A stretch of DNA of 64,000 nt from Bacteroides timonensis (lineage in GTDB: Bacteria > Bacteroidota > Bacteroidia > Bacteroidales > Bacteroidaceae), in NCBI RefSeq assembly GCF_000513195.1, contig NZ_CBVI010000112.1:1-64000 (forward strand). The letters are read 5' to 3'. A program made the translations under genes and the position numbers. Below are positions 15,759 through 59,472 of this stretch, piece after piece (position 1 is the first letter of the stretch; the number at the start of each line of letters is the position of its first letter). The notes beneath the pieces were generated by a model, which was not told the DNA's origin, did not search any database, and worked only from the letters and a program-made list of their open reading frames with translations.

Positions 15759-16538
15759 GAAAGCAATGCCTGTTTTGCCGAAGAATACACAGGAGGGTTA
15801 TTTACTTTGCAGAAATAAAAAGTTCATCACCTCAATTCTGGGATAGAATAACATAAACGAAAAATATAAAAGCATATAGGAAGGGCAAAGGCTTTTGGCA
15901 AAAATGGAAGTAGTAATTCGACAAAAAAGGAACTCTCTGTTATAGATATATTATTGATTCACAAAACATTATAAGATTTTATAAAAGTTATATTTAGGAT
16001 TTTAAAAGAGGAAGACAGAAATATATAAATGGCAGAAACCAAATCGAATATAAAAATGGCAATGAAAACAGTCAAATTCATGTTTTATATATATACTTAA
16101 TATACAAAGAATTAAATATATAATATTAATTCTTTAGTTTAGATGTATTCATTCACTATTCGACAAAAATGGAAGTTGTTGCAAATAAGTAAGAGCCAAT
16201 GAACATTCTCCTTCAAAAGGCCAAGTTCTGGATAAGGCAATACTTGAATTGTCTTTCATACCGATTTGTCGAATAGCAAGTTACGCACTCAATATATATA
16301 GAAAAAAATACCGATTTGTCGAAAAAGTATAGAAAACCATGAAACTCAGCACACAAGTGTTGTTTTCAGTTCCCAAAATACAAAAGAACGAAAGGTAAAA
16401 TTGACCAATATTCAGGAGTAGGGGAAAGAGTTGAAAGGGCTAACGGAAAAGGAAGCAAAGAATAACAGGAAACCGGTGTTCTTTTCTCTAAACAAAAAAA
16501 CTCTGGAACATATCAACCATCATTCTCTACATCTCCAC
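15759..16538. other. 780-bp noncoding stretch with iteron-like sites
   Basis: AT-rich, without a supported gene. It carries one TTACTTTGCAGAA box (15802-15814) and four copies of the site found in the replication array at 49-51 kb (listed separately). The rest shows poly-A and TATA runs only. Confidence 0.6.
15917..16323. repeat. Four iteron-like sites matching the 49-51 kb array
   Basis: Two sites read TTCGACAAAAAAGGAAC (15917-15933) and TTCGACAAAAATGGAAG (16159-16175). Two read TACCGATTTGTCGAA in the opposite orientation (16259-16273 and 16309-16323). The last form is identical to the complement of the array member at 50809-50823. No rep gene is adjacent here. Confidence 0.65.
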
Positions 16539-18237: not shown

Positions 18238-19800
18238 CTACTTTCGTTCCCGGCACTCATTTTGCGTGGCATCTGCACGCATACGGTCAATTTCTTCCCG
18301 CATGAAACTACCAGATTGTTCAATACGGATTTCTCCGGAATTTCCAGAACCTTCATCCAATGCTTTAACAGTCAGCAATCCGTCCTTGTCCAAATCAAAC
18401 AAAATCTTAATACGCGGTTCTCCGGCCTTGGCAGGAGAGAGTCCACTCAGAGTGAAAGTTCCAATCAGTTTATTTGTTTTCGCAAAATATCCTTCTCCTT
18501 GAAGAATTTGTATCGTTACAACTTCCTGAAAATCTTCAGTTGTAGTAAAATAGTCGTGGCGGCTTATCGGTATTGTTTCATTTGCATGAATTATGGGTGA
18601 CATTACTCCGTTTTCTGTCTGTACACCTAATGTCAAAGGAGTAACATCCATCAATATTACACTCTCAAATTCCTTATTCAACAATGCTCCCTCCCATGCG
18701 GCCCCCATAGCTACAATTTCATCGGGATTGACGCAATGCGAAGGTTCCAGTCCAAAATACTGCCGGACCATTCTTTTTATAACCGGCATACGAGTTGAGC
18801 CACCAACCAAGAGGATCCGGTCAATCTCAGATAAAGATATACCAGCATCGCTAACAGCTTTCTCACAAGGCAGGTAACATTGGGCAACAAGCGGCTCAAC
18901 AAGTTGCTCGAATTTCTCTCGGGTCAATGTATGTTGCAGGTGGAGGGGGACATTACCAGATGCGACTATATACGGAATCTTAATTTCTACAAAGTCACTT
19001 GAAGAGAGTTCTATCTTTGCTTGTTCAGCAGCCTCTCTTACACGTTGCAACGCTTCCGGAAAAAGCCAAAGTTCTACTCCATGCTTTTTATAGAAATCCC
19101 CCATCAGCCAATCCATAATCACCTTGTCAAAATCATCTCCACCCAAATGTGAGTTACCACCGGTAGCCATCACCTCATAAAACCCCGCATCACAGTCCAG
19201 AATAGAAATATCAAAAGTACCTCCCCCCAGGTCAAACACAGCAATCTTACCTGGCGTACCATCTTGTATGCCATAAGCTAGTGCTGCAGCTGTCGGTTCA
19301 TTCAAGATACGCCTTACATTTAGATTGGCAATATGGCCCGCTTCTTTCGTAGCCAATCGCTGTTTCTCTGTAAAATAAGCCGGTACTGTTATAACCGCAT
19401 CCGTCACTTCCTGCCCCAGATGCTCTTCAGCAATCCTCTTAATATTACAAAGGATATGTGCCGATATTTCCTGTGGTGTATAATCTTTATTTCCAATCGG
19501 GAACGCGACTCCACCATTATCTGTTACCTTGACAGGATATGGCATTTGGTTCCCCATGGCTTTTATATCCTTATAAGATTCTCCCATAAACCGCTTGACA
19601 GAGAAGACTGTTTGCTTCGGATTAACAATTGCTTGTCTTCTGGCAGAATCTCCCACCTTGATGCCCATAGAGGTAAAAGCAACAACTGATGGAGTTGTCC
19701 TTTTGCCTTCGTTGTTTGGCAAAACAACAACCTGGTTTCCCTCGTACAGAGCAACACACGAATTTGTCGTACCTAAATCAATACCTATAATTTTCTTCAT
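18238..19800 (-). CDS. DnaK/Hsp70 paralogue lacking the alpha-helical lid
   Basis: 520 aa against about 640 for house-keeping DnaK. The nucleotide-binding domain is complete: IIGIDLGTTNSCVAL (phosphate 1), AVITVPAYF, ILNEPTAAALAYG, IAVFDLGGGTFDISIL (phosphate 2) and RILLVGGSTRMPVIK (adenosine). The linker/SBD-beta start, LMDVTPLTLGVQTENG, is near residue 390, and SBD-beta runs to about 485. After that only about 30 residues remain, so the C-terminal lid is absent. ATP-driven peptide binding should persist, with faster release. It lies in a cluster of unknown small genes and has no DnaJ or GrpE beside it, which points to a specialised client inside this island. Confidence 0.85.
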   Translation of the reverse strand: MKKIIGIDLGTTNSCVALYEGNQVVVLPNNEGKRTTPSVVAFTSMGIKVGDSARRQAIVNPKQTVFSVKRFMGESYKDIKAMGNQMPYPVKVTDNGGVAFPIGNKDYTPQEISAHILCNIKRIAEEHLGQEVTDAVITVPAYFTEKQRLATKEAGHIANLNVRRILNEPTAAALAYGIQDGTPGKIAVFDLGGGTFDISILDCDAGFYEVMATGGNSHLGGDDFDKVIMDWLMGDFYKKHGVELWLFPEALQRVREAAEQAKIELSSSDFVEIKIPYIVASGNVPLHLQHTLTREKFEQLVEPLVAQCYLPCEKAVSDAGISLSEIDRILLVGGSTRMPVIKRMVRQYFGLEPSHCVNPDEIVAMGAAWEGALLNKEFESVILMDVTPLTLGVQTENGVMSPIIHANETIPISRHDYFTTTEDFQEVVTIQILQGEGYFAKTNKLIGTFTLSGLSPAKAGEPRIKILFDLDKDGLLTVKALDEGSGNSGEIRIEQSGSFMREEIDRMRADATQNECRERK

Positions 19801-38470: not shown

Positions 38471-39484
38471 CTATTCTGTATCTAAAGATTTTCTCAGTAA
38501 TCTGCTTAACCGCTCTTTGTAGCTACTCAGATACATCCGTTTTTGTTTTTCCTCAAGAAAACTATTATTAATGAGTTCAGCAACTTTCGGCTGTTCAACC
38601 AAAAAAGGAGCCATCAGTTTTTTTATCTGTTTATCAGATAATCCTATTTTCTGGCCGAAATGAATAAAGTCATCCTGGCATGGGTGCCCTTTCCTCTCGT
38701 ATATATCCGTTTTGTCTAAAGTAGCAGAGAGCCCATCTTCTAAAGCAAAATCACCATCGTTAGTATGTAAAGAAGTATTCATCAAATCATAAGCTGGCGA
38801 TAATAAGTAATCTCCATCTTTAGATAATTGCAATGAGAAATTCTTTAAATGTGCATCTCCGTTAGCAAAAGCATAATTGAATAAAACAAGCACAAAGAAT
38901 TTACCCATTTCAACTTGCCATGCCGGCACCAATTCCTTAATTTTCAGAGCAACGTCCTCATAGCTTCCTGTATATTTAAAATCCTGTCCATGAGTTTCTG
39001 AGGTCTTCTCTATCAAAGAGGCAAAATCCTCCTGAGGCACTTTTGTACCATCATCAAGGATATCAAAGCGTTTGGTTAAATAAGCGGGTGTACCATCTGA
39101 AAAAAATATAATTCCATTTTCAGCCGTCGAGATCTGATAAACCTGACGAGCTATTTGCATAGTCAAGTGCTCATTGGCAGGGATTTGCTTTCTATCCCGT
39201 AATGCCTTATTCTCCGGTGCAGGTTTAATGATATAACGTCCCTGTTCACCTTCAGCCGTCAATCTTATTCTGCCATTATCTTCGACAGCGGACATTTTTT
39301 CCTGTACTCCTGAAACAGATATACGCACCGCATTTTCTGTTATAGCTACATACTGATCATCATCATAACTAAAATCCATCATGTGATTAACCCGCTTCCC
39401 AGAAAAGAGTCTTTTACATGCTAAGGGACTATATGTAGTAAATCCAACAGCTAAAGTAGAAGGACAACAAATAATATCTTTCAT
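38471..39484 (-). CDS. hipT: HipT toxin kinase (HipBST system)
   Basis: 337 aa, the kinase part of HipA without the N-terminal HipS-like domain. The Gly-rich loop is AVRISVSGVQEKMSAV with two Ser (56 and 58), like the two autophosphorylated Ser in HipT of E. coli O127. The catalytic loop is YAFANGDAHLKNFSLQLS, with Asp, and the metal-binding SPAYDLMNT. Known HipT phosphorylates tryptophanyl-tRNA synthetase, and HipA the glutamyl enzyme. Transcribed hipB, hipS, hipT, 1 bp after hipS. Looks intact. Target here unknown. Confidence 0.88.
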   Translation of the reverse strand: MKDIICCPSTLAVGFTTYSPLACKRLFSGKRVNHMMDFSYDDDQYVAITENAVRISVSGVQEKMSAVEDNGRIRLTAEGEQGRYIIKPAPENKALRDRKQIPANEHLTMQIARQVYQISTAENGIIFFSDGTPAYLTKRFDILDDGTKVPQEDFASLIEKTSETHGQDFKYTGSYEDVALKIKELVPAWQVEMGKFFVLVLFNYAFANGDAHLKNFSLQLSKDGDYLLSPAYDLMNTSLHTNDGDFALEDGLSATLDKTDIYERKGHPCQDDFIHFGQKIGLSDKQIKKLMAPFLVEQPKVAELINNSFLEEKQKRMYLSSYKERLSRLLRKSLDTE

Positions 39485-40935: not shown

Positions 40936-43900
40936 TTAGTTTATCGGATTATTCTTTTCATAAACAGATCGCAAAGAATAATCCTCTTTCTTTACACATT
41001 CATTACATATAAGATCTGCCTCGGATTTATATCCGTTTGTATACAAATATTCAACTATATCTTTGAGCTTCGGATTATGATAATTATCAGACGAGCTTTG
41101 AATTAGACAATTAACGATATGCGCAACTTCAGCCGATGAATTGTGAAGAAAAGAATACAGGCATTCAATAATCTGCCATGAATTACCGTACTCACAATTC
41201 AGGTTTACGGAAGCCAACATCTTTTCTTCTCTATCACTATCTATTGTTTCAAAGAACCCGATCAGTCTATAGCTCTCTTTTATAAAAAGAGAGCTTGTTT
41301 CTTCTTCCTCATTCGAATCTTTATATTTCTGGTACATAAAACTCCAGATACGATTCACAAATTCCACACAACTTTTATCATCCCGTAACCGCCACAAATA
41401 ATTCATCAAATATTCGCATATCGTTTTTGAACCCCTACCGCAGATCGTGGGCAGTTCTTCATCACCAAGAAGTTTCATTCGAATAGCTTTCAAAAGATTA
41501 CCAATAACGGTTTCAGCTATTATAGAGTCCTGTTCTTCTATATTATCCAATATGTCTGCATATATGCCACAATCATATAAGTATTTAAAAACAGGCAGAT
41601 TACTTAATGGATGATGTAAATGATAACCATACAATGCTGCTTTATAATTCGATGGACAATTTACATTAAAAATTATATTTAGTTTATCGTAGAACCAAGA
41701 TTGATCGATATAGGTAATCTCATTATGGAAAGAGGCAATAGCGTAAAATAAATCGACATTTTCCTCCTGTCTTATATCTGTATCAAGAATTTCCTCGATA
41801 TCTTCATGCCATCTATGTGACTCTTCTTTGTGTTCGTTCTTGGCAGAAAGGTATGTTACCCTAATTAAGCACTCATATAATTTCTCATGATGCCGGTTAT
41901 ATATTGAATTCCAACTTCCATCCCATGGCTTTTCATAGATAGATTGTGCTTCTTGCCTAACAAGCAATAAAGTGTCCTTAATTATCTGTAACACAGTGGG
42001 AGTTATCTTGTCATAGCCCCTTTCCATGTATCGACCAGCAAGCATCAAAAAGTTATTAACCAACCAATGAGGAATATCAAAATTCGATGGGGCAGCATTG
42101 TATTTTATCCAAAAGCTCTCATTAAACAATTTTTGGAAGGTGACAAATATCACTTCCGCATTCCGGAAACTTCTATGTTCATTGAGATATTTCATCAACC
42201 CACATGACCAATCATATATCATCGGCATAGGAGCATTTTGCATTTCACCCATTTCCAAATCATATTTATCAGGGACCTTACTAATCCTTTCTACAAATTC
42301 CGAGGACAACTCTTGCCTAGCTATATCAATTGGTAAAGATCTTCCTTCTTTTTCATGTTCTTTGTATAATTCAACGATTTCTGATAAGGACATATTCTGC
42401 AAATTATAATCAGGAGAAGCAGCCGGAGCGGAAATACCCTCTGTCACATATGATAAATATCCCGGATGATCTATTTCATGAGGATATTGCAGACAAACAG
42501 ATTCTACATACGCAGCTATCTCAGAATCCTGATTCTTTTTAAGGGCCAGTACATACATCTTCTTCCAAAATAGGATATCATCCTTTGCATCTTTTTGACC
42601 TTCACCCTCCGGAAGCGTCAGATTTTCAATCCATTCTTTACACAAATGCAATTCATCTTGTGAAAATTCAGCACAATTTTGTTCTATAAGAGAATATAGC
42701 TCAGGATAACACTGTATGTCATTCAAAGGATTCTTATCTTGACTGCACAACAGCCCTTTTAACACTGCATAATTTTTTCCTATGACATAATAAGCTACTC
42801 TTTTGTAAATTATCTCAGACTCATTGAGAAGCTCTTTTACAGCAACCATTTGATCTTCTGCAGACAGATTATATACATAGTCAATAAGGTAAAAAACCAA
42901 CAGATCTTCATAATCATCATTGTAGCGGTTCTGCTCATCTTCTATATTCATAGAAGGCAGACATGACCTATGCCGTATAGACTTGAGCTTATCCAACAAA
43001 ATAGAATAGCCTTCCATACCGCAAACATCCACTATTTTTTTTAATTGATCCTTAATAAAGGACCTATACGAATATAAACTAAATACAGGGAGATATTCTG
43101 GGTATCCTGCGTCATTTTTCTTGTTAGAAAACAACAAATCGATACATTTCAATGCAGCATTTTTATTATCCACTTCAAGAAATCTGGGAATCAGTTTTTC
43201 TGTAAAAGAAAACATTAAAGCTGTACCAGCATTGATTATCTCTTCAATATATGTAAGATGTTTTTCGGAAATATATTCGTCGGGCAATGTACTGATAAGT
43301 TCAATCAGCATATCATTGGTCCTTAAATTTACTATTCTTCCACCATCCTCATTCGTGAAACCTAATATTGAATCTATAATATTACAGATTGTTTTCCATT
43401 TTTCTTTTTCTTTCGGAGAAATTTTGTGTGCTACACGGCATACATATTGTAATTCATGCCAGTAAGGATATGAAAAGCAACCTGGATATTCCTTGGATTC
43501 AACAGGATCAGGATTGTTTTTCCCATCAAATATTCCTTTCTCATAAAGAGGCTGTAACCATCCCACAGAATCTAAATGACTATAGAAATACATGGATTTG
43601 CTTTCATCTGATAAAATGATATTCAACCGATCCAAAGTGGTTTCATTCGGAATATCAGTCTGGGTCAATGTATCAAGTCGCGTTATGATTACAATATACG
43701 TTCCCACCAGTTGATAGAGTATATCTTCAAATTCATCCCATATCAGAATGATATCCTGAGGATTCCTTGGACGCTCTATAGACTTATCATCCCGGTGCGC
43801 ATATTTATTAAACCAAATGGACAGTTTAATGTATCTTTTGGCAATATTGGAATCAGGAGAGTAACCAAAAGAAGAAACAATAGATGATATATGTCCGCTC

Positions 43901-44226
43901 TGCTTGATATCTTTCTCATTTACATCTCGCAGATACTCATAGTGTGAATATTCATTTTTGAATTCATTGAACAGCTTCTCATAATAAACATCGTCAATGG
44001 TCTTTTTAATATCTTCTTTTTTCTTTTTGCTCTCAAAGATACTTCTTAGACCACCGTCGATCTCGCGCAGGAGATGTCCCAAAACATTTGACTTAGATAA
44101 AAAATCCATTTGCTTAAAGCAAACACCATCTTTATAAAAAGCCGCTATTTCGGGTCGGATGGTCATTAATCCGTTATAGACAGCTTGCTCTTTCGTATTT
44201 AAAATAGTATCTAACTGTTTCATCAC
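40936..44226 (-). CDS. Orphan 1096-aa helical protein, possible defence protein
   Basis: No family recognised with certainty. The N-terminal 200 residues resemble HEPN/Abi-type helical domains: SNVLGHLLREIDGGLRSIFE, then YIKLSIWFNKYAHRDDKS and the closing helix DIILIWDEFEDILYQLVGTY. The rest (residues 230-1090) is a series of helical repeats with no Walker A, nuclease or protease motif that I can find. Such large single-gene proteins with a HEPN-like head occur among abortive-infection systems. Here a TA operon lies 0.9 kb away. Its start MMKQLDTIL has no clear promoter. Only one strand of genes here; no partner gene downstream. Confidence 0.65.
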   Translation of the reverse strand: MMKQLDTILNTKEQAVYNGLMTIRPEIAAFYKDGVCFKQMDFLSKSNVLGHLLREIDGGLRSIFESKKKKEDIKKTIDDVYYEKLFNEFKNEYSHYEYLRDVNEKDIKQSGHISSIVSSFGYSPDSNIAKRYIKLSIWFNKYAHRDDKSIERPRNPQDIILIWDEFEDILYQLVGTYIVIITRLDTLTQTDIPNETTLDRLNIILSDESKSMYFYSHLDSVGWLQPLYEKGIFDGKNNPDPVESKEYPGCFSYPYWHELQYVCRVAHKISPKEKEKWKTICNIIDSILGFTNEDGGRIVNLRTNDMLIELISTLPDEYISEKHLTYIEEIINAGTALMFSFTEKLIPRFLEVDNKNAALKCIDLLFSNKKNDAGYPEYLPVFSLYSYRSFIKDQLKKIVDVCGMEGYSILLDKLKSIRHRSCLPSMNIEDEQNRYNDDYEDLLVFYLIDYVYNLSAEDQMVAVKELLNESEIIYKRVAYYVIGKNYAVLKGLLCSQDKNPLNDIQCYPELYSLIEQNCAEFSQDELHLCKEWIENLTLPEGEGQKDAKDDILFWKKMYVLALKKNQDSEIAAYVESVCLQYPHEIDHPGYLSYVTEGISAPAASPDYNLQNMSLSEIVELYKEHEKEGRSLPIDIARQELSSEFVERISKVPDKYDLEMGEMQNAPMPMIYDWSCGLMKYLNEHRSFRNAEVIFVTFQKLFNESFWIKYNAAPSNFDIPHWLVNNFLMLAGRYMERGYDKITPTVLQIIKDTLLLVRQEAQSIYEKPWDGSWNSIYNRHHEKLYECLIRVTYLSAKNEHKEESHRWHEDIEEILDTDIRQEENVDLFYAIASFHNEITYIDQSWFYDKLNIIFNVNCPSNYKAALYGYHLHHPLSNLPVFKYLYDCGIYADILDNIEEQDSIIAETVIGNLLKAIRMKLLGDEELPTICGRGSKTICEYLMNYLWRLRDDKSCVEFVNRIWSFMYQKYKDSNEEEETSSLFIKESYRLIGFFETIDSDREEKMLASVNLNCEYGNSWQIIECLYSFLHNSSAEVAHIVNCLIQSSSDNYHNPKLKDIVEYLYTNGYKSEADLICNECVKKEDYSLRSVYEKNNPIN

Positions 44227-47525: not shown

Positions 47526-49022
47526 TTACCAGGAACCCTCCCCAACATTATAGAATAATTGAACTTTATCTCCATATATTGTCGTAAGAGAGGCTCTCAT
47601 CACATCAACGAATTTCTCTTCAATTATCTCATAGAAAAATTGACTGGGAACTATCACTATTACTTGAGTGCTATCATCTTTTTTACTTACAGTAAAAGGA
47701 ATTAAAGGTTTAAACCATATTTTGAATTGTTCCGGCTCTATTTTCTCCTTTATCAAATTCAGGAAACCTTCCCAATCTTTTTTTTGTTCTTCGGTCAACT
47801 GTGATTTATAAACAGTGATTTGAGGTTTAGGAGTTGGAACTGCTTGTTTTTTTGCCGGAGCAGGATCAACGACCACCTCATCCACCAATTCATTTGTTAT
47901 AAAATTGACCAAAGATTTATTCACATATCGACGTACACTCGTATCTACTTTTATTTTACCTTTCTCAATATCTGCAGACAAGGCCTTTACTTTAGCCGCA
48001 AATTTTTTAAAATTCGCAGGAGAAACTTTTAAAAGAAGTGACTTCATCTGTGCAGGAGTCTGCTGTAACTTCTCTTTGAGTATTTTTTCTAATTCTATTT
48101 CTTCTGACTTACGAGTTTTATCGGACTGCAATTGGTTACCTAGTTCAGATAACTTAACTTCAAATTCTATGCTTTCCGGACATCTGGATTTCCTATTATT
48201 CTTATAAATAGGTTTGTAATCGAAATAAAAATCAGTTTCCTTTGTTTTGGCTTTTTTTTCCAGTTCTTGTTTGGCCGGTTCGAGAACTCTTCTCTTAAAA
48301 TCACTAAAATAAAGGTATTTCTCTCCATTTTCACCGATAAATCCCATTATCTTCCTGAAATTCATATAGTCCTCCTTAAATTTACTCCCATCCCGGCTAA
48401 ATTTAGAAGAAATATAAATATAGATACGTGCGGAATAAGAACTTTCCGAATTAGTAACCGTATAATCCAAATAATGATCTATCCATTTATTGAAATCAAA
48501 TATATGGTTAGCGACATTTTTCTTTATAACAATAGAAATAACAGGTTTTTTGTACTTGTACACAGTATCTCCTGTTTTCTTATCGGTTTCAGTTATAACA
48601 TTCTCATTCCATAAGATAGGCTTAAGCAAGGTATCTATCATGTCTCCGGTATCCCCTTTTCCATTATTTACAGGAACCAGACAAGGAATACCCGCCATCT
48701 GAAAGATAGTATTGAAGGCAACCGGATAGTGTTTCGGTTGAATACCTAACTCACTTAGATGCAAATCGAACATTATATCATCTTTATCCAACACATGTTC
48801 ACGCAATTCCTCCGAATCAAAAAGAGACCCCATTTGCACTTGTGGCGCAGAGAACTTTTCATTAAGCTTTTTCTTGAAAATATCCTGTAACTTCCGTACT
48901 ACTGCATTAATTACTTTTATCTGTGTTAATGATGCAGTAAATGGAAGCATTGAAAGTGTAACCGGTTGTGCCAATAGATTATTTCGATCCAGGACAATAA
49001 TTTCTTTCTTCTTTGGTTTCAT
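47526..49022 (-). CDS. Rep_3-family replication initiator with DnaA domain I at its end
   Basis: 498 aa. Residues 30-290 are the two winged helices of a plasmid RepB/Rep_3 initiator (SLTQIKVINAVVRKLQDIF; FNKWIDHYLDYTVTNSESS; RIYIYISSKFSRDG; FRKIMGFIGENGEKYLYFSD). A linker (VPTPKPQ) leads to residues about 410-495, which match DnaA domain I: WEGFLNLIKEKIEPEQFKIW, FKPLIPF, then VPSQFFYEIIEEKFVDV and VQLFYNVGEG. Bacteroides DnaA carries nearly the same VPSQFFYE and EEKFVD strings. In DnaA this domain contacts DnaB helicase and DnaA regulators. The 1.6-kb iteron array upstream is the obvious binding target. Confidence 0.88.
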   Translation of the reverse strand: MKPKKKEIIVLDRNNLLAQPVTLSMLPFTASLTQIKVINAVVRKLQDIFKKKLNEKFSAPQVQMGSLFDSEELREHVLDKDDIMFDLHLSELGIQPKHYPVAFNTIFQMAGIPCLVPVNNGKGDTGDMIDTLLKPILWNENVITETDKKTGDTVYKYKKPVISIVIKKNVANHIFDFNKWIDHYLDYTVTNSESSYSARIYIYISSKFSRDGSKFKEDYMNFRKIMGFIGENGEKYLYFSDFKRRVLEPAKQELEKKAKTKETDFYFDYKPIYKNNRKSRCPESIEFEVKLSELGNQLQSDKTRKSEEIELEKILKEKLQQTPAQMKSLLLKVSPANFKKFAAKVKALSADIEKGKIKVDTSVRRYVNKSLVNFITNELVDEVVVDPAPAKKQAVPTPKPQITVYKSQLTEEQKKDWEGFLNLIKEKIEPEQFKIWFKPLIPFTVSKKDDSTQVIVIVPSQFFYEIIEEKFVDVMRASLTTIYGDKVQLFYNVGEGSW

Positions 49023-49200
49023 TGGATAAATGATTTATAATAGCCACAAAAATAGAATTACTTTCTCATTCCACCAAGAAAAAACAATCAAAGTTGACTG
49101 AATCGGCTTGCATTTTAAGTAATTAGTTTAAAAGCAAGTAGAGTTTAAATATCTCAACCTCCCCTCCCCTAACTAATGATCCAAAAAGGAAATGCATATT

Positions 49201-50823
49201 TTCGACAAAATTGGAACTAATAGACCTTATTTTCTACGATTAATCAGAGAGAAAGGGAAGCAAAAAACTTCCTTTTTTGTCGAAAATAAATTATAACACA
49301 TTATATCCCAATGCTTTATATTTACTATACAGACCAGAAATATAATCATGACTGCTATTTTATACTATAAACAATAACCTTACTATTACTCTTTTCGACA
49401 AAATTGGAACAATTATTCCCAATATTATCCCCTCATTTCACCATAGCGCCATCGATAGAATTGTATATATAGCTAACAATGAATGAAAACCGGCAAATTT
49501 TCGACAAATCTGGAACAATTACTCTCTATAACCGTATCTGCCATCCAAATCATGGGATATAATAGGAAATATTCACCTCAATTATATTCCATTTTGTCGA
49601 AAATGATATCTAAACTTCCACTTCTGACGAATAAGTTCCAAAAATGTCGAGAAATAATAGTTCCAATTTTGTCGAAAACAACAATAATAGCAAAAGACTA
49701 AAAAATTCCAATTTTGTCGAAAGTAAAAATTAATCTTCTGATATTCAACAATATATAAAATGATCAGAGCCAAACATACCTTTTCAAAGATATATCATCT
49801 CAATTTATAAAAGCAGTATATTCTGTCGTAAATAATATTTTAATATGCTGTATGATAGCTTATTAGCATACATATTTTCGACAAAGAGGTATTATTTTAA
49901 ATCGTTCAATATAGTCTTATGCAAATACGTGTCAAGCAGTACTCCCCTCCCCCACTTCACCTTATCCAGCATCCAAATTTGCCGAATATTAATTCCAAAT
50001 TTGTCGAATTTGCTTTTTTCGATTCCTAATATGACGAAATCCCTTCCATAAATGCCGAATAGAGAAAGAATAAAGCTCCATAAAGGCCGAGTAAATCTCC
50101 ATAAAAGCCGAAATAAGTTCCTAATTTGTCGAAAATTAGCGTATAATAGACTGATAATCAATACTGTTTAGCTCCTTTTATTTCTTATTCTATATATTCT
50201 TTATTTTATTCAAAATATATCGATCGATTGTTTTTTGAGAAGGACTAAAGGGAAAAAAGAAAATGCCGCAATGGATAAATTACAAATAAAAAATAAACTT
50301 TCGACAAAGCGGAATAATTATCTATATTATTAGATTAAATCTCTGAAGATACTACGAGTACTTCCTAAAAAGTCGAAAAACAGTTCCAAAAATGTCGAAA
50401 TGTACTATTTTAGTTCCAAATTTGTCGAATATGAATTCCATAAATGTCGAATATATACATAATTTTATTCCATAAAAGCTGAGTAAACTTCCATATATGC
50501 CGAAAAATGTTCCTAATTTGTCGAAATTACGATTATATTATACTGGAAATCAATATAATATGTTCCTTTTATTCTCTATTTCTTTTATTCTTTTGTTATT
50601 CAATATAATCGATCGATTATTTTTTGAGGAACAGATTAAAGGGAAAAAGAAAATAGGCACAAAAGATTGAAATTAAGGTAACTGGGATGATTTTTTATTG
50701 GTTTCGACAAATTTGGAACTCATTATAGGCCTTATTCTTTTTCTGTGCAGTTCCAATTTTGTCGAAATTGGTGGCAATAGTGGCTTTGTAGATAGCTGTA
50801 GTGGCATTTTCGACAAATCGGTA
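49201..50823. repeat. Iteron array, more than 20 degenerate copies, both strands
   Basis: Core TTCCAATTTTGTCGAA or its complement, loosely TTCC-N6-TG(T/C)CGAA. Clear copies start at 49201, 49395, 49499, 49635, 49660, 49706, 50410, 50703, 50751 and 50809; degenerate ones (for example CCATAAATGCCGAA near 50045) fill the gaps. Spacing is irregular. The array lies between the divergent ends of rep and the partition genes. It is most likely the plasmid-type origin, bound by the Rep_3 initiator. Variant forms also occur at 15.9-16.3 kb. Confidence 0.85.
50076..50654. repeat. 190-bp block duplicated inside the iteron array
   Basis: 50076-50264 and 50468-50654 align end to end in the same order: CCATAAA..GCCGA, TTCCTAATTTGTCGAAA, CAATA, TCCTTTTATT, ATCGATCGAT, TTTTTTGAG, GGGAAAAA. 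The second copy is offset by about 391 bp. The AT-rich segment with palindromic ATCGATCGATT between iterons is a good candidate for the DNA-unwinding element, doubled. Confidence 0.7.
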
Positions 50824-50955: not shown

Positions 50956-51444
50956 TTAGATATTGTAGCCATTAATAAGCTTGTATAGCTCTCTTGTATC
51001 TGGGTAGTTCTTATCTAGCCATTCTACTGCGCTTTGATAAAGCAGGAGATCCAATGATATTAATGGTTCACCTTTTTTGCGTGAATTATTCAAACGCTTT
51101 TTGACTGTGTCTAGACGAAATAAAGTTTCGTCATCCAATGTCACATTGCGGATACAGGTTCTTTTAACTTCACTTTTTTCAGCGGGTGTGCTTTGTTTTG
51201 GCATTTCATTTCTTGAATCATTAGTGGGGTTGGTTGCATTTTTATCTTCTATGACTTCTCCCCCACCCTGTTCTTGCGGCTGATTACCTTGTTCTGTTAA
51301 TGGAGATTCTTGCAACTGTTCAGTTTCTGAAGGATTTTCAGCAAGAGAACCCTGTGCTGGATTTAGAGCGTTCTTAGCCTTTTCTGTTTGATGCAATGCA
51401 TCAGCCATTGTATCATTCAATGAGTATTTTGCTTTTGGTGGCAT
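50956..51444 (-). CDS. ParA partner, possible centromere-binding protein
   Basis: 162 aa. The first 95 residues are Gln/Glu/Pro-rich and probably disordered (NPSETEQLQESPLTEQGNQP). The last 65 form a compact helical domain (RNVTLDDETLFRLDTVKKRL; LLYQSAVEWLDKNYP) typical of ribbon-helix-helix-like DNA-binding partners of ParA. The gap to parA is 13 bp, so the two form one operon. It has no ParB nuclease-like motif, so it is a type of ParB analogue. The site it would bind is unknown; the repeat-rich tract before parA is a candidate. Confidence 0.65.
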   Translation of the reverse strand: MPPKAKYSLNDTMADALHQTEKAKNALNPAQGSLAENPSETEQLQESPLTEQGNQPQEQGGGEVIEDKNATNPTNDSRNEMPKQSTPAEKSEVKRTCIRNVTLDDETLFRLDTVKKRLNNSRKKGEPLISLDLLLYQSAVEWLDKNYPDTRELYKLINGYNI

Positions 51445-53888: not shown

Positions 53889-54086
53889 TTGGCTGTGCTC
53901 ACAGGGGCTTTTTTAGTTGCCATAAGGCAGGGGAGAAATGGTAATAATGGATGGCTTATTCTATTTAAGTCCGATTCGGATGTCCGATTTTGTAGATATA
54001 ATCAATTAAATATAAATACTTTACCATTCGAACTGGTAAATTTCGTCCATCCGATGAAAGGCTTTTACTTTGCAAAAAAAACAGTG

Positions 54087-54749
54087 ATGATAATTACTTT
54101 TTCAAATAAGAAAGGTGGCGTAGGAAAATCCAGTTTGTGTGTTTCGTTGGCAAACTACTGGGCTAATCAGGGGAGATCCGTATGCATATTTGATGCGGAT
54201 GAGCAGGCGACCCTCTTGCGTGCACGTAATGAGGACATGAGAGCCTTTCCAGAATGTCAGCCTTTATTTGAAATACGGCCTTTTATTATAAAGGAGGAGT
54301 TTGACCGTTTGGGATTACTTTTGGAGAATTATAAAAAGGAAGAACAGCGGCATTATCTGTTTGATTTGCCCGGGGGATCCGGAGCTGAGAATCTGGGCAT
54401 TGTTACTTTTTCCGATTATGTCATTGTACCTTTCCAATATGAGGAATTTTCCATTGATTCTACCGGGGTATTTGCAACCGTCCTCCAAATGCTGGAAAAA
54501 ATGAATCCGGCGTTGAAACGAACGGCTATTTTTGTACCTAACATGGTGGATGTGCGAATAGGAAGAGTTTCAGACCGCAAGAGGTGGGATGATTGGGATA
54601 AATCCATAGATGCAGTAGCTATTCGCTCTCCACGCATTCCTTTAAAGGTGTGTATGCAGCGCAGGAATACCTTATTTATGTCTTTGGAAGAGCAGAAATG
54701 TGTTTCACCTTGTTTCGAGTTTATAACTAATCAAATATTTAAAAACTGA
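54087..54749 (+). CDS. traA: TraA-like ParA-family ATPase, head of the tra operon
   Basis: 220 aa from ATG 54087, chosen because MIITFSNKKGGVGKSSLCVS begins directly with the family strand. The frame is open to 53889 but that part has no homology. Deviant Walker A (KKGGVGKS), FDADEQATLLRARN, Walker B-like HYLFDLPGGSG. In CTnDOT-type elements it is the first tra gene. Role in transfer poorly known. 14 bp to the next gene. A TACTTTG box lies 20 bp upstream. Confidence 0.8.
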   Translation: MIITFSNKKGGVGKSSLCVSLANYWANQGRSVCIFDADEQATLLRARNEDMRAFPECQPLFEIRPFIIKEEFDRLGLLLENYKKEEQRHYLFDLPGGSGAENLGIVTFSDYVIVPFQYEEFSIDSTGVFATVLQMLEKMNPALKRTAIFVPNMVDVRIGRVSDRKRWDDWDKSIDAVAIRSPRIPLKVCMQRRNTLFMSLEEQKCVSPCFEFITNQIFKN

Positions 54750-57996: not shown

Positions 57997-59472
57997 ATGA
58001 CATTATATGTAATTTTATTCTTGGTAGCTGTGTGTGTTGGCATGGCTATATCTATCTCCGCTTTTGGTACGGGAGGAAAGCGTAAAAACATTTTTAAAGA
58101 TATTTATTTCTCTGTAGAAGATACTGAGGATGGAATCGGGGTGCTCTATACCAAAGGGGGGGATTATTCTGCGACTATGCTTATGGAAAATCCTGTTGAG
58201 CAATACAGTGCCAATATAGATGCATATTATGATTATACCAGTCTGTTTACGGCATTGATACAGACGTTAGGAGAGGGGTATGCGATACATAAACAGGATG
58301 TGTTTTGTATGGAGAAGTTCCGGATGGAGGAGAATAATAATAAGAAGGAGTATCTGTCTGATGCCTACTTCAACTATTTTCAGGGCCGTCCTTATACGGA
58401 ATGCAGGACTTATCTGACTATTACCCAAGAGGGAAAGAAGGGACGTTTCAACCAATATGATGCGAAGAAATGGAATGATTTCCTGATTAAGCTTAGAAAA
58501 GTGATTGACCAGTTGCATGATGGGGGAGTGAAGGCACGTTTCCTGAACAAATTGGAACTTTCAGATTTTGTGGATCGTTTTTTTGCTGTCAATTTTAAAC
58601 GGGGAAAGTTTTCCATGAGTAATTATAAGGTTGATGAGGATTGTATCCATTTGGGGGATAGGAAGATGAAAATATATTCGCTGGTGGATGTAGATCAGGT
58701 GTCGTTGCCGAGGATTGTCCGTCCGTATACAGAGCTGGTGGTGAATAATACTTCGATGTCGATAGACTTTATGTCACATATCAGTTATACAAAAGAGCAT
58801 CCCATTACCATGAATCCGTTTTGTATCAGAAAGGAGGAATTGAATGTAGAGAAGACGGACTTTCTGAAAAATATGGTCTTATTGATATGGAAGGGAGCGC
58901 AAGGGAATGTAAGCAAGGAAGAGGACAAGGTTGTCAATATGGTGATAACCGAATACTATGATGTTTATTTTGAAGGTTTTGCAGGCTTTTCGGATGAGCA
59001 GCGCTGGGATATGCAGCGTAGTTTGCAGATTGATATGCGCTGCAAGGAGGATGACTCGGAAGAAGCCCGTTCAACCGCTTTGAGAAGGCTGATGCAGGAT
59101 GAAAGTGAACTGACTTTGGAAGATATGACACTGAGTGAGGAAGAAATTTATAAGAAGGAACAGTTTAAGCGCTGGAACAGCAATATTTATGACCAGATAG
59201 ACAATATAGAGAAAAGGCGGAAGGAGTTGGAGGTTTCGTCCTTGTCTTTCAACAGCTTTTATGAATATGCCATGCAGCGTGTACCGGATATCTGTAAGGA
59301 GAATAAGATTGAGTTTGATTTCAGCTCGTTCCGTTTTATGCTGAAAGATTTCTATAAAGGTGGTATTTTTGAAAAGACGTTGAACGAGGATTTTGACGGT
59401 AGTCTATTTGATGAAACTTTCATTGTTTTCGAGATCGATTCAATAAAGGGTGCGCCCGTCAAGGCTGCATAA
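57997..59472 (+). pseudogene. traG: TraG (VirB4-like ATPase), deleted inside and truncated
   Basis: 491 codons. N-part FKDIYFSVEDTEDGIGVLYT, then LPRIVRPYTELVVNNTSMSI. At DFMSHISYTKEHPITMNPF two parts that are normally about 200 residues apart meet: DFMS before the pore domain, and YTxEHPITMNPF after the Walker A segment. No GxxGxGKS motif exists in the protein. The C-end stops at IDSIKGAPVKAA because the group II intron begins at GTGCGCC (59450). Canonical TraG is about 830 aa. Non-functional. Confidence 0.8.

Follow-up and report, generated by a model that had tools for sequence, protein, structure and literature searches.

Why should a plasmid replication initiator end in a domain of the chromosomal initiator DnaA, and from where would it have acquired this domain? 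The question is raised by an ORF in a stretch of 64,000 nucleotides of Bacteroides timonensis DNA (hereafter the window), which starts with ATG, encodes 498 residues and had been interpreted by the first-pass annotation as a Rep_3 initiator carrying a captured DnaA domain I. The contig comprises 64,583 bases, without an overlap of its ends that would indicate a complete circle. Upstream of rep and on the same strand lie a gene for a ParA ATPase and an ORF of 162 codons, and the gap between this small gene and rep (1,933 bases, 30% GC) is occupied by an iteron array (Table 1). Since parA, the small ORF and the iteron array adjoin it, the rep ORF belongs to a replication and partition module of plasmid type. 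The 15 iteron copies, counted with a consensus derived from the array itself, compare with a mean of 0.04 copies in 100 dinucleotide shuffles. Four further iteron-like copies with 4-5 mismatches are located at positions 15893-16324 of the window, about 33 kb from rep, and are possibly a second control or partition site.

Several other genes of the window were recorded. Pfam recognised a second ParA-like ATPase (53889-54749), a TraG P-loop protein of the conjugation type (57997-59472, E 1.3e-23) and a HipA-like protein (38471-39484, E 1.6e-36), which is possibly a toxin-antitoxin stability module, and an ORF of 1,096 codons (40936-44226) belonged to no Pfam family at E 0.001. A DnaK-like HSP70 of 520 residues is encoded at 18238-19800 (E 1.6e-188, with the match ending at profile position 522 of 599). 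DnaK acts on the iteron Reps of other plasmids and, by analogy, the element-borne HSP70 might act on the window Rep.

Table 1 Features of the replication and partition module. Positions refer to the window unless a plasmid locus is named.
Feature	Position	Strand	Evidence
rep gene, 498 aa, Rep_3-type initiator with C-terminal DnaA domain I	47526..49022	-	ORF, Pfam, relative L089
Rep3_C, winged helix 2 (WH2), residues 222-288	48159..48359	-	Pfam PF21205, E 1.2e-10, above curated cut-off
Linker, residues about 381-410	47793..47882	-	alignment with six unfused relatives; pLDDT <50 at 381-407
DnaA domain I-like domain, residues about 411-493	47544..47792	-	Pfam PF11638, AlphaFold, 4tps_B Z 12.3
alpha3 patch PSQFFYE, residues 459-465, holding the counterpart of E. 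coli Phe46	47628..47648	-	DnaA consensus comparison
Iteron array, consensus AGTTCCAAATTTGTCGAAA, both orientations, 15 copies at <=4 mismatches	49200..50767	.	repeat count
Small protein, 162 aa, after parA, in parB position, no Pfam match	50956..51444	-	ORF, Pfam
parA, partition ATPase, 262 aa	51458..52246	-	Pfam AAA_31, E 3.9e-51
Diverged DnaA domain I-like end, pBUN1	L036 4850-5143		hhalign
Diverged DnaA domain I-like end, pBuniCL06T06-1	L037 4895-5185		hhalign
Diverged DnaA domain I-like end, pBFO17_1	L045 3967-4260		hhalign

The proposed architecture was borne out by Pfam, which found Rep3_C (E 1.2e-10) and DnaA_N (PF11638, residues 417-479, E 2.7e-11, 43.4 bits against a cut-off of 24.6) in one ORF. 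The first winged helix (WH1; Rep3_N, PF01051) gave no Pfam match in the window protein at E 0.1; it is present in the Rep of the fused relative L089 described below (E 8.3e-7) and in all five unfused relatives scanned. NCBIfam matched the window protein below its cut-offs to DnaA (6.9e-6, residues 417-494) and to RepM (1.7e-5, residues 154-315). Neither the AAA+ ATPase domain nor the DnaA-box-binding domain of DnaA was detected, DnaA_N and Rep3_C being the two Pfam families found at E 0.1. A misread chromosomal dnaA was ruled out by this absence of the ATPase domain and by the location of the host's dnaA on another contig: the host genome holds two PF11638 matches, one on contig C57 (dnaA) and one on C112 (the rep gene of the window). 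An assembly artefact was likewise ruled out, since L089, which comes from a different collection (IMG/VR), shows the same fusion and gene order. We are all but certain that the window protein, in identity and architecture, is a Rep_3 initiator with a genuine DnaA domain I tail.

The strings VPSQFFYE and EEKFVD, on which the initial reading had drawn, are found at residues 458-465 and 468-473, and residues 402-493 are 43% identical to the host's own chromosomal DnaA (E 3.1e-15). The assignment of the last 85 or so residues to DnaA domain I was further examined by structure prediction, based on an alignment of 48 sequences (the window, L089 and 46 dnaA rows from the best 80 of 582 loci). The resulting AlphaFold model of residues 405-498 (94 aa) had a mean pLDDT of 92.6 and the order H-H-E-E-H-E. 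In Foldseek, three matches scored below 0.001, all of them to domain I of DnaA (chains of 4tps and 2e0g), and H. pylori 2wp0 followed at ranks 5 and 6, after a ribosomal protein. With VIA-align 2, 82 residues superposed on domain I of B. subtilis DnaA (4tps_B) at 1.9 A with a Z score of 12.3, and H. pylori 2wp0_D reached 9.7; both exceed the background of ribosomal proteins (Z 8.1 and below), inside which E. coli 2e0g falls (Z 7.3). Neither a different fold nor a similarity confined to a few residues was thus found, given the 82 superposed residues. The alignment, consisting mostly of DnaA, could have steered the tail model. A full-length model made from the window and L089 proteins only, without DnaA rows, again had 4tps as its first match (E 1.7e-3, probability 1.00); its Rep part was poor (mean pLDDT 60.2), and no Rep structure appeared among the 50 matches listed for it. 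The predicted fold of the tail is the KH-like fold of DnaA domain I.

A second Rep with this tail was found only through a search with the domain alignment, not with the window protein alone. On the 83-kb IMG/VR contig concerned (L089), a gene for a ParA-type ATPase is accompanied by one for a protein of 139 aa, which has no Pfam match, and by a rep gene whose 482-aa product contains WH1, WH2 and DnaA_N according to Pfam; the order parA - small gene - rep in L089 and L171 is that of the window. The window and L089 Reps are identical in 135 of 500 alignment columns, with 46% identity in the tail (37/80) and 25% in the core (88/355). This higher identity of the tail may reflect later arrival rather than constraint. 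Protein searches with the window Rep yielded no whole-protein relatives in viral_contigs or genome_contigs and none covering 80% of the protein in plasmids or phages. Relatives of the core that have both winged helices and lack DnaA_N (5/5, Pfam) are encoded on plasmids of five named organisms, Prevotella sp. E2-28, P. nigrescens, B. fragilis (pBF9343), P. salanitronis (pBACSA01) and Mucilaginibacter robiniae, and six relatives without the tail, when aligned with the window Rep, measure 385-392 aa and end about where the linker begins. When the L089 Rep was searched by tblastn, 58 plasmid records were obtained, none with 80% coverage; among the best 40 of these 58, no match extended beyond query residue 364, the tail beginning near residue 399. 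Because plasmids without the tail exist, it is not required by this Rep family in general.

In genome_contigs, the domain alignment recovered 582 relatives, and the best 80 of them are all dnaA, typed as such by a downstream Walker motif (70) or by eye (10, two of which are cut by contig ends). Five loci that had resembled the fusion on a plasmid or phage were rejected: H5-H8 contain full-length dnaA frames, as does H39, where dnaN and rpmH lie alongside. According to per-genome match counts in a sample of 296 genomes from the phylum, 13 have a second PF11638 match, the window's genome included; the other 12 comprise 10 second dnaA genes with a Walker motif downstream, a dnaX (G368) and a weak 107-aa frame (G202), so that the Rep fusion was seen in 1/296 genomes, inspection being confined to those with a second match. 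The second dnaA genes (L063-L072) come from ten genomes of three families. The dnaX of G368 (L074) has a weak C-terminal DnaA_N match (E 4.9e-4), below the cut-off when the protein is scanned, in line with a kinship between DnaX and domain I of DnaA. A search of 198 related genomes with the whole protein, again tallied by match counts, gave two matches in six of them, two fused (the window's own and G014) and four (G001, G012, G029 and G081) with a tailless Rep relative of 385-392 aa.

The DnaA_N tail is not unique to the window Rep but recurs on other plasmid initiators. G014, a genome of the same genus, encodes a Rep of another subfamily with WH1, WH2 and DnaA_N (E 7.4e-10). The Rep of Hymenobacter sp. 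BRD128 is split into two overlapping frames, the first with WH1 and the second with WH2 and DnaA_N (E 3.8e-12); the second is annotated as 'DnaA N-terminal domain-containing protein'. Plasmids of Rubrobacter carry RPA/TrfA-like initiators with DnaA_N, with E values of 1.8e-10 in R. tropicus, 6.3e-10 in R. marinus, where the domain is in a separate reading frame, 7.7e-6 for plasmid 3 of R. radiotolerans and 2.7e-5, just under the cut-off, in R. indicoceani. An RPA protein of Deinococcus radiophilus (L086), to which tblastn aligned the query up to residue 454 and hence into the tail, was not counted, as Pfam finds no DnaA_N in it. The Reps of B. uniformis pBUN1, pBuniCL06T06-1 and B. fragilis pBFO17_1 are annotated as 'hypothetical protein' and their tails are missed by Pfam. 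In hhalign, their last 80 or so residues matched a profile built from Rep tails and domain I of DnaA with a probability of 96.5% (E 9.2e-10) and a second, larger profile with 96.2%, compared to 0.1% against the first profile for four unfused Rep C-termini and 0.3% for the two sets of C-termini against each other; these E-values are those of single comparisons, and the control alignment is loose.

Capture from a Bacteroidales DnaA, as the first-pass annotation had proposed, predicts that the tails group with the DnaA proteins of this order. We tested this with a domain tree of 83 columns, containing the window and L089 tails and 85 DnaA rows; the tails of G014, Hymenobacter and four Rubrobacter plasmids were left out for their long branches, so that two of eight Rep tails were used. 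The two tails came out as sisters (100/87) and fell inside a set of 34 rows with Bacteroidales DnaA (99/92), in agreement with the proposed origin, their branches still being flagged as long. Of this set, which includes both tails and the host's own DnaA, 28 rows bear the family names Bacteroidaceae, Dysgonomonadaceae, Tannerellaceae or Paludibacteraceae, and six have no family name. In a tree of all eight Rep tails with 45 DnaA rows, G014 joined the window and L089 on a long branch (90/92, not starred), the Hymenobacter tail was likewise placed among the Bacteroidales (93/98, not starred) and the Rubrobacter tails lay far away from these on long branches; a single origin of all tails was not rejected (p-AU 0.376). 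The string KEKI was considered as a mark of the window, L089 and G014 tails and was rejected, as it occurs in a few DnaA rows too; the looser pattern K[ED]KI is found in 6 of the 85 DnaA rows, all of Chlorobiaceae type. The tree of the cores (16 rows) did not resolve window and L089 as sisters (p-AU 0.319 when forced together), and the two tails may accordingly stem from one capture followed by losses, from two captures or from a tail swap.

What the tail could do was approached through its residues. For E. coli DnaA domain I, the accessible part of PMC5448010 describes dimerisation via Trp6 and contacts to DnaB via Glu21 and Phe46, on opposite faces; the same text portion presents helicase binding by this domain as demonstrated only for E. 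coli and seemingly not made in B. subtilis. In an alignment with 2e0g (numbered one lower), the window Rep has W417, W436 and F462 as counterparts of Trp6, Trp25 and Phe46, and Glu21 and Asn44 are replaced by Q432 and S460. The columns of W417 and F462 are invariant in the 48 rows. As Gln432 of the window Rep is matched by Thr in the host DnaA and as Ser is commonest in the DnaA rows, Glu21 is hardly defining in this phylum. The patch PSQFFYE equals the DnaA consensus in 7/7 positions in both window and L089; since it is the best-kept part among DnaA proteins themselves too, we regard it as shared rather than specially constrained.

The first-pass annotation had suggested that the fusion recruits the host helicase directly or sequesters DnaA partners, both of which are treated here as hypotheses. 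The reading to which we give roughly an even chance is that the tail tethers a helicase-loading partner of the host to the iteron origin. As in other members of the family, the two-winged-helix part would bind the iterons upstream of rep, and the tail, a domain I from a Bacteroidales-type DnaA, would be held on a flexible linker, consistent with the low-confidence stretch 381-407. Many iteron-bound Reps would then display an array of domain I heads, like DnaA bound to oriC, and these heads would tether to the melted origin a host partner, putatively DnaB, alone or together with DciA or the host DnaA. The iterons, the kept alpha3 patch and the presence of DciA in the host genome speak for this reading; the Gln in place of Glu21, the demonstration of helicase binding by domain I in E. 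coli only and the tailless relatives speak against it.

According to a second reading, which we consider unlikely, the tail pairs with the host DnaA via the Trp6-type dimer face and thereby draws DnaA and the helicase to an origin without DnaA boxes. The invariant W417 is in line with such pairing, as is the origin gap of the window, which holds no exact DnaA box and one single-mismatch box, no more than expected by chance. However, the Cys found on the dimer face in 98% of DnaA rows is Phe in both Reps, which may weaken the pairing, and exact boxes were absent from all of the 12 gaps beside rep genes that were scanned, fused and unfused alike (11 of them putative origins, defined as such gaps, in addition to that of the window). 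At one mismatch, one box was found at the window, one at pBFO17_1 and none in the other ten gaps, which is at chance. The prediction of fewer DnaA boxes at fused origins therefore did not discriminate among the 12 gaps and, since tailed and tailless rep genes are alike in lacking neighbouring exact boxes, a replacement of DnaA boxes by the tail gains no support. Matches of TTTTCGACA at two mismatches were rejected as DnaA boxes, since they represent the iteron core.

Quite unlikely in our estimation is a third reading, in which the tail joins Reps together, as oligomers or by handcuffing two plasmids, and serves as a copy-number device instead of a recruiter. The dimer-face Trp is kept, the iterons are many and lie in both orientations, and the change from Cys to Phe could favour Rep-Rep pairing; the best-kept patch, however, is at alpha3, opposite the dimer face, and binds partners in E. 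coli. It is very improbable that the tail titrates the host proteins which bind DnaA domain I, delaying or timing chromosomal replication to the plasmid's advantage: its alpha3 patch is the same as that of the host DnaA, but initiators are usually scarce, and a role at the plasmid's own origin better explains the location on Rep. A chance fusion or functionless relic, to which the tailless relatives and the divergence of the pBUN1/pBFO17-type tails beyond Pfam detection could point, is the least credible of all, as the reading frame is kept open, the fold is predicted with high confidence, the tail is better kept than the core between two distant Reps and it recurs on other Reps.

Tethering of a helicase-loading partner can be extended to a more general, tentative proposal, which we hold with clearly less than even confidence. 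Domain I would be a portable replisome-recruiting head, acquired at the C-terminus by plasmid initiators whose cores belong to different families (Rep_3 in Bacteroidota, RPA/TrfA-like in Rubrobacter and DALP in Rickettsia), partly in separate captures and with tails sometimes diverged beyond Pfam, as in pBUN1/pBFO17. Such a head would load the helicase without DnaA boxes and could set the host range. To our knowledge, helicase loading by iteron plasmids of Bacteroidota has not been worked out, and we know of no partners of DnaA domain I in this phylum. The host range of a plasmid may depend on helicase loading by its Rep. The tailed Rep and its tailless relatives amount to a natural deletion experiment, by a domain of 85 residues, on how a bound Rep brings about helicase loading, and the tail would offer a handle for finding the partners of DnaA domain I in Bacteroidota.

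Compared with known systems, the Reps of pBF9343 and Prevotella share with the window the Rep core with WH1 and WH2 (385-388 aa) and, on the plasmid of Prevotella sp. E2-28, a ParA upstream of Rep, but they end near the start of the linker without DnaA_N. The Rubrobacter plasmid initiators have the C-terminal DnaA_N in common with the window Rep and differ in their RPA/TrfA-like core and in their tails, which are remote in the tree and on long branches. The DnaA-like plasmid replicases of Rhodobacterales are relatives of whole DnaA, unlike the window Rep, in which Pfam finds no DnaA ATPase domain; one of our matches is annotated as 'plasmid replication protein DnaA-like-I'. Like the window Rep, these replicases are plasmid initiators related to DnaA, as described in the accessible text of PMC3832669. 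The RepA_N-type Rep of pSK41 from Staphylococcus also couples a DNA-binding part to a C-terminal domain that is probably host-specific and contacts the primosome. Its structures, in contrast, are similar to DnaD, and the partner of its C-terminal domain is DnaG, which provides a precedent for the binding of a primosome protein by the C-terminal domain of a plasmid Rep (available sections of PMC5703833).

The closest description comes from Rickettsia. In the literature searched, which included few subscription journals, C-terminal DnaA_N plasmid proteins were found for Rickettsiaceae only. The accessible portion of PMC4316617 reports that DALP, encoded on Rickettsia plasmids, has a C-terminal DnaA_N (pfam11638) and an otherwise variable sequence; DnaA_N proteins are also reported on plasmids of Torix Rickettsia and Megaira (excerpt of PMC9098888), and parA and dnaA-like genes together carry shuttle vectors (excerpt of PMC3244465). 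DALP resembles the window Rep as a plasmid-borne initiator candidate with DnaA_N at its C-terminus. It belongs to another phylum, and the portion of PMC4316617 at hand, from whose description alone the comparison is drawn, gives no Rep_3 assignment for its N-terminal part. The tail of the window Rep is real and looks functional, and it is a variant of what has already been noted in Rickettsia plasmids. What the present case contributes beyond this is a clean Rep_3 core, an iteron array, tailless plasmid relatives and evidence for a derivation from Bacteroidales DnaA.
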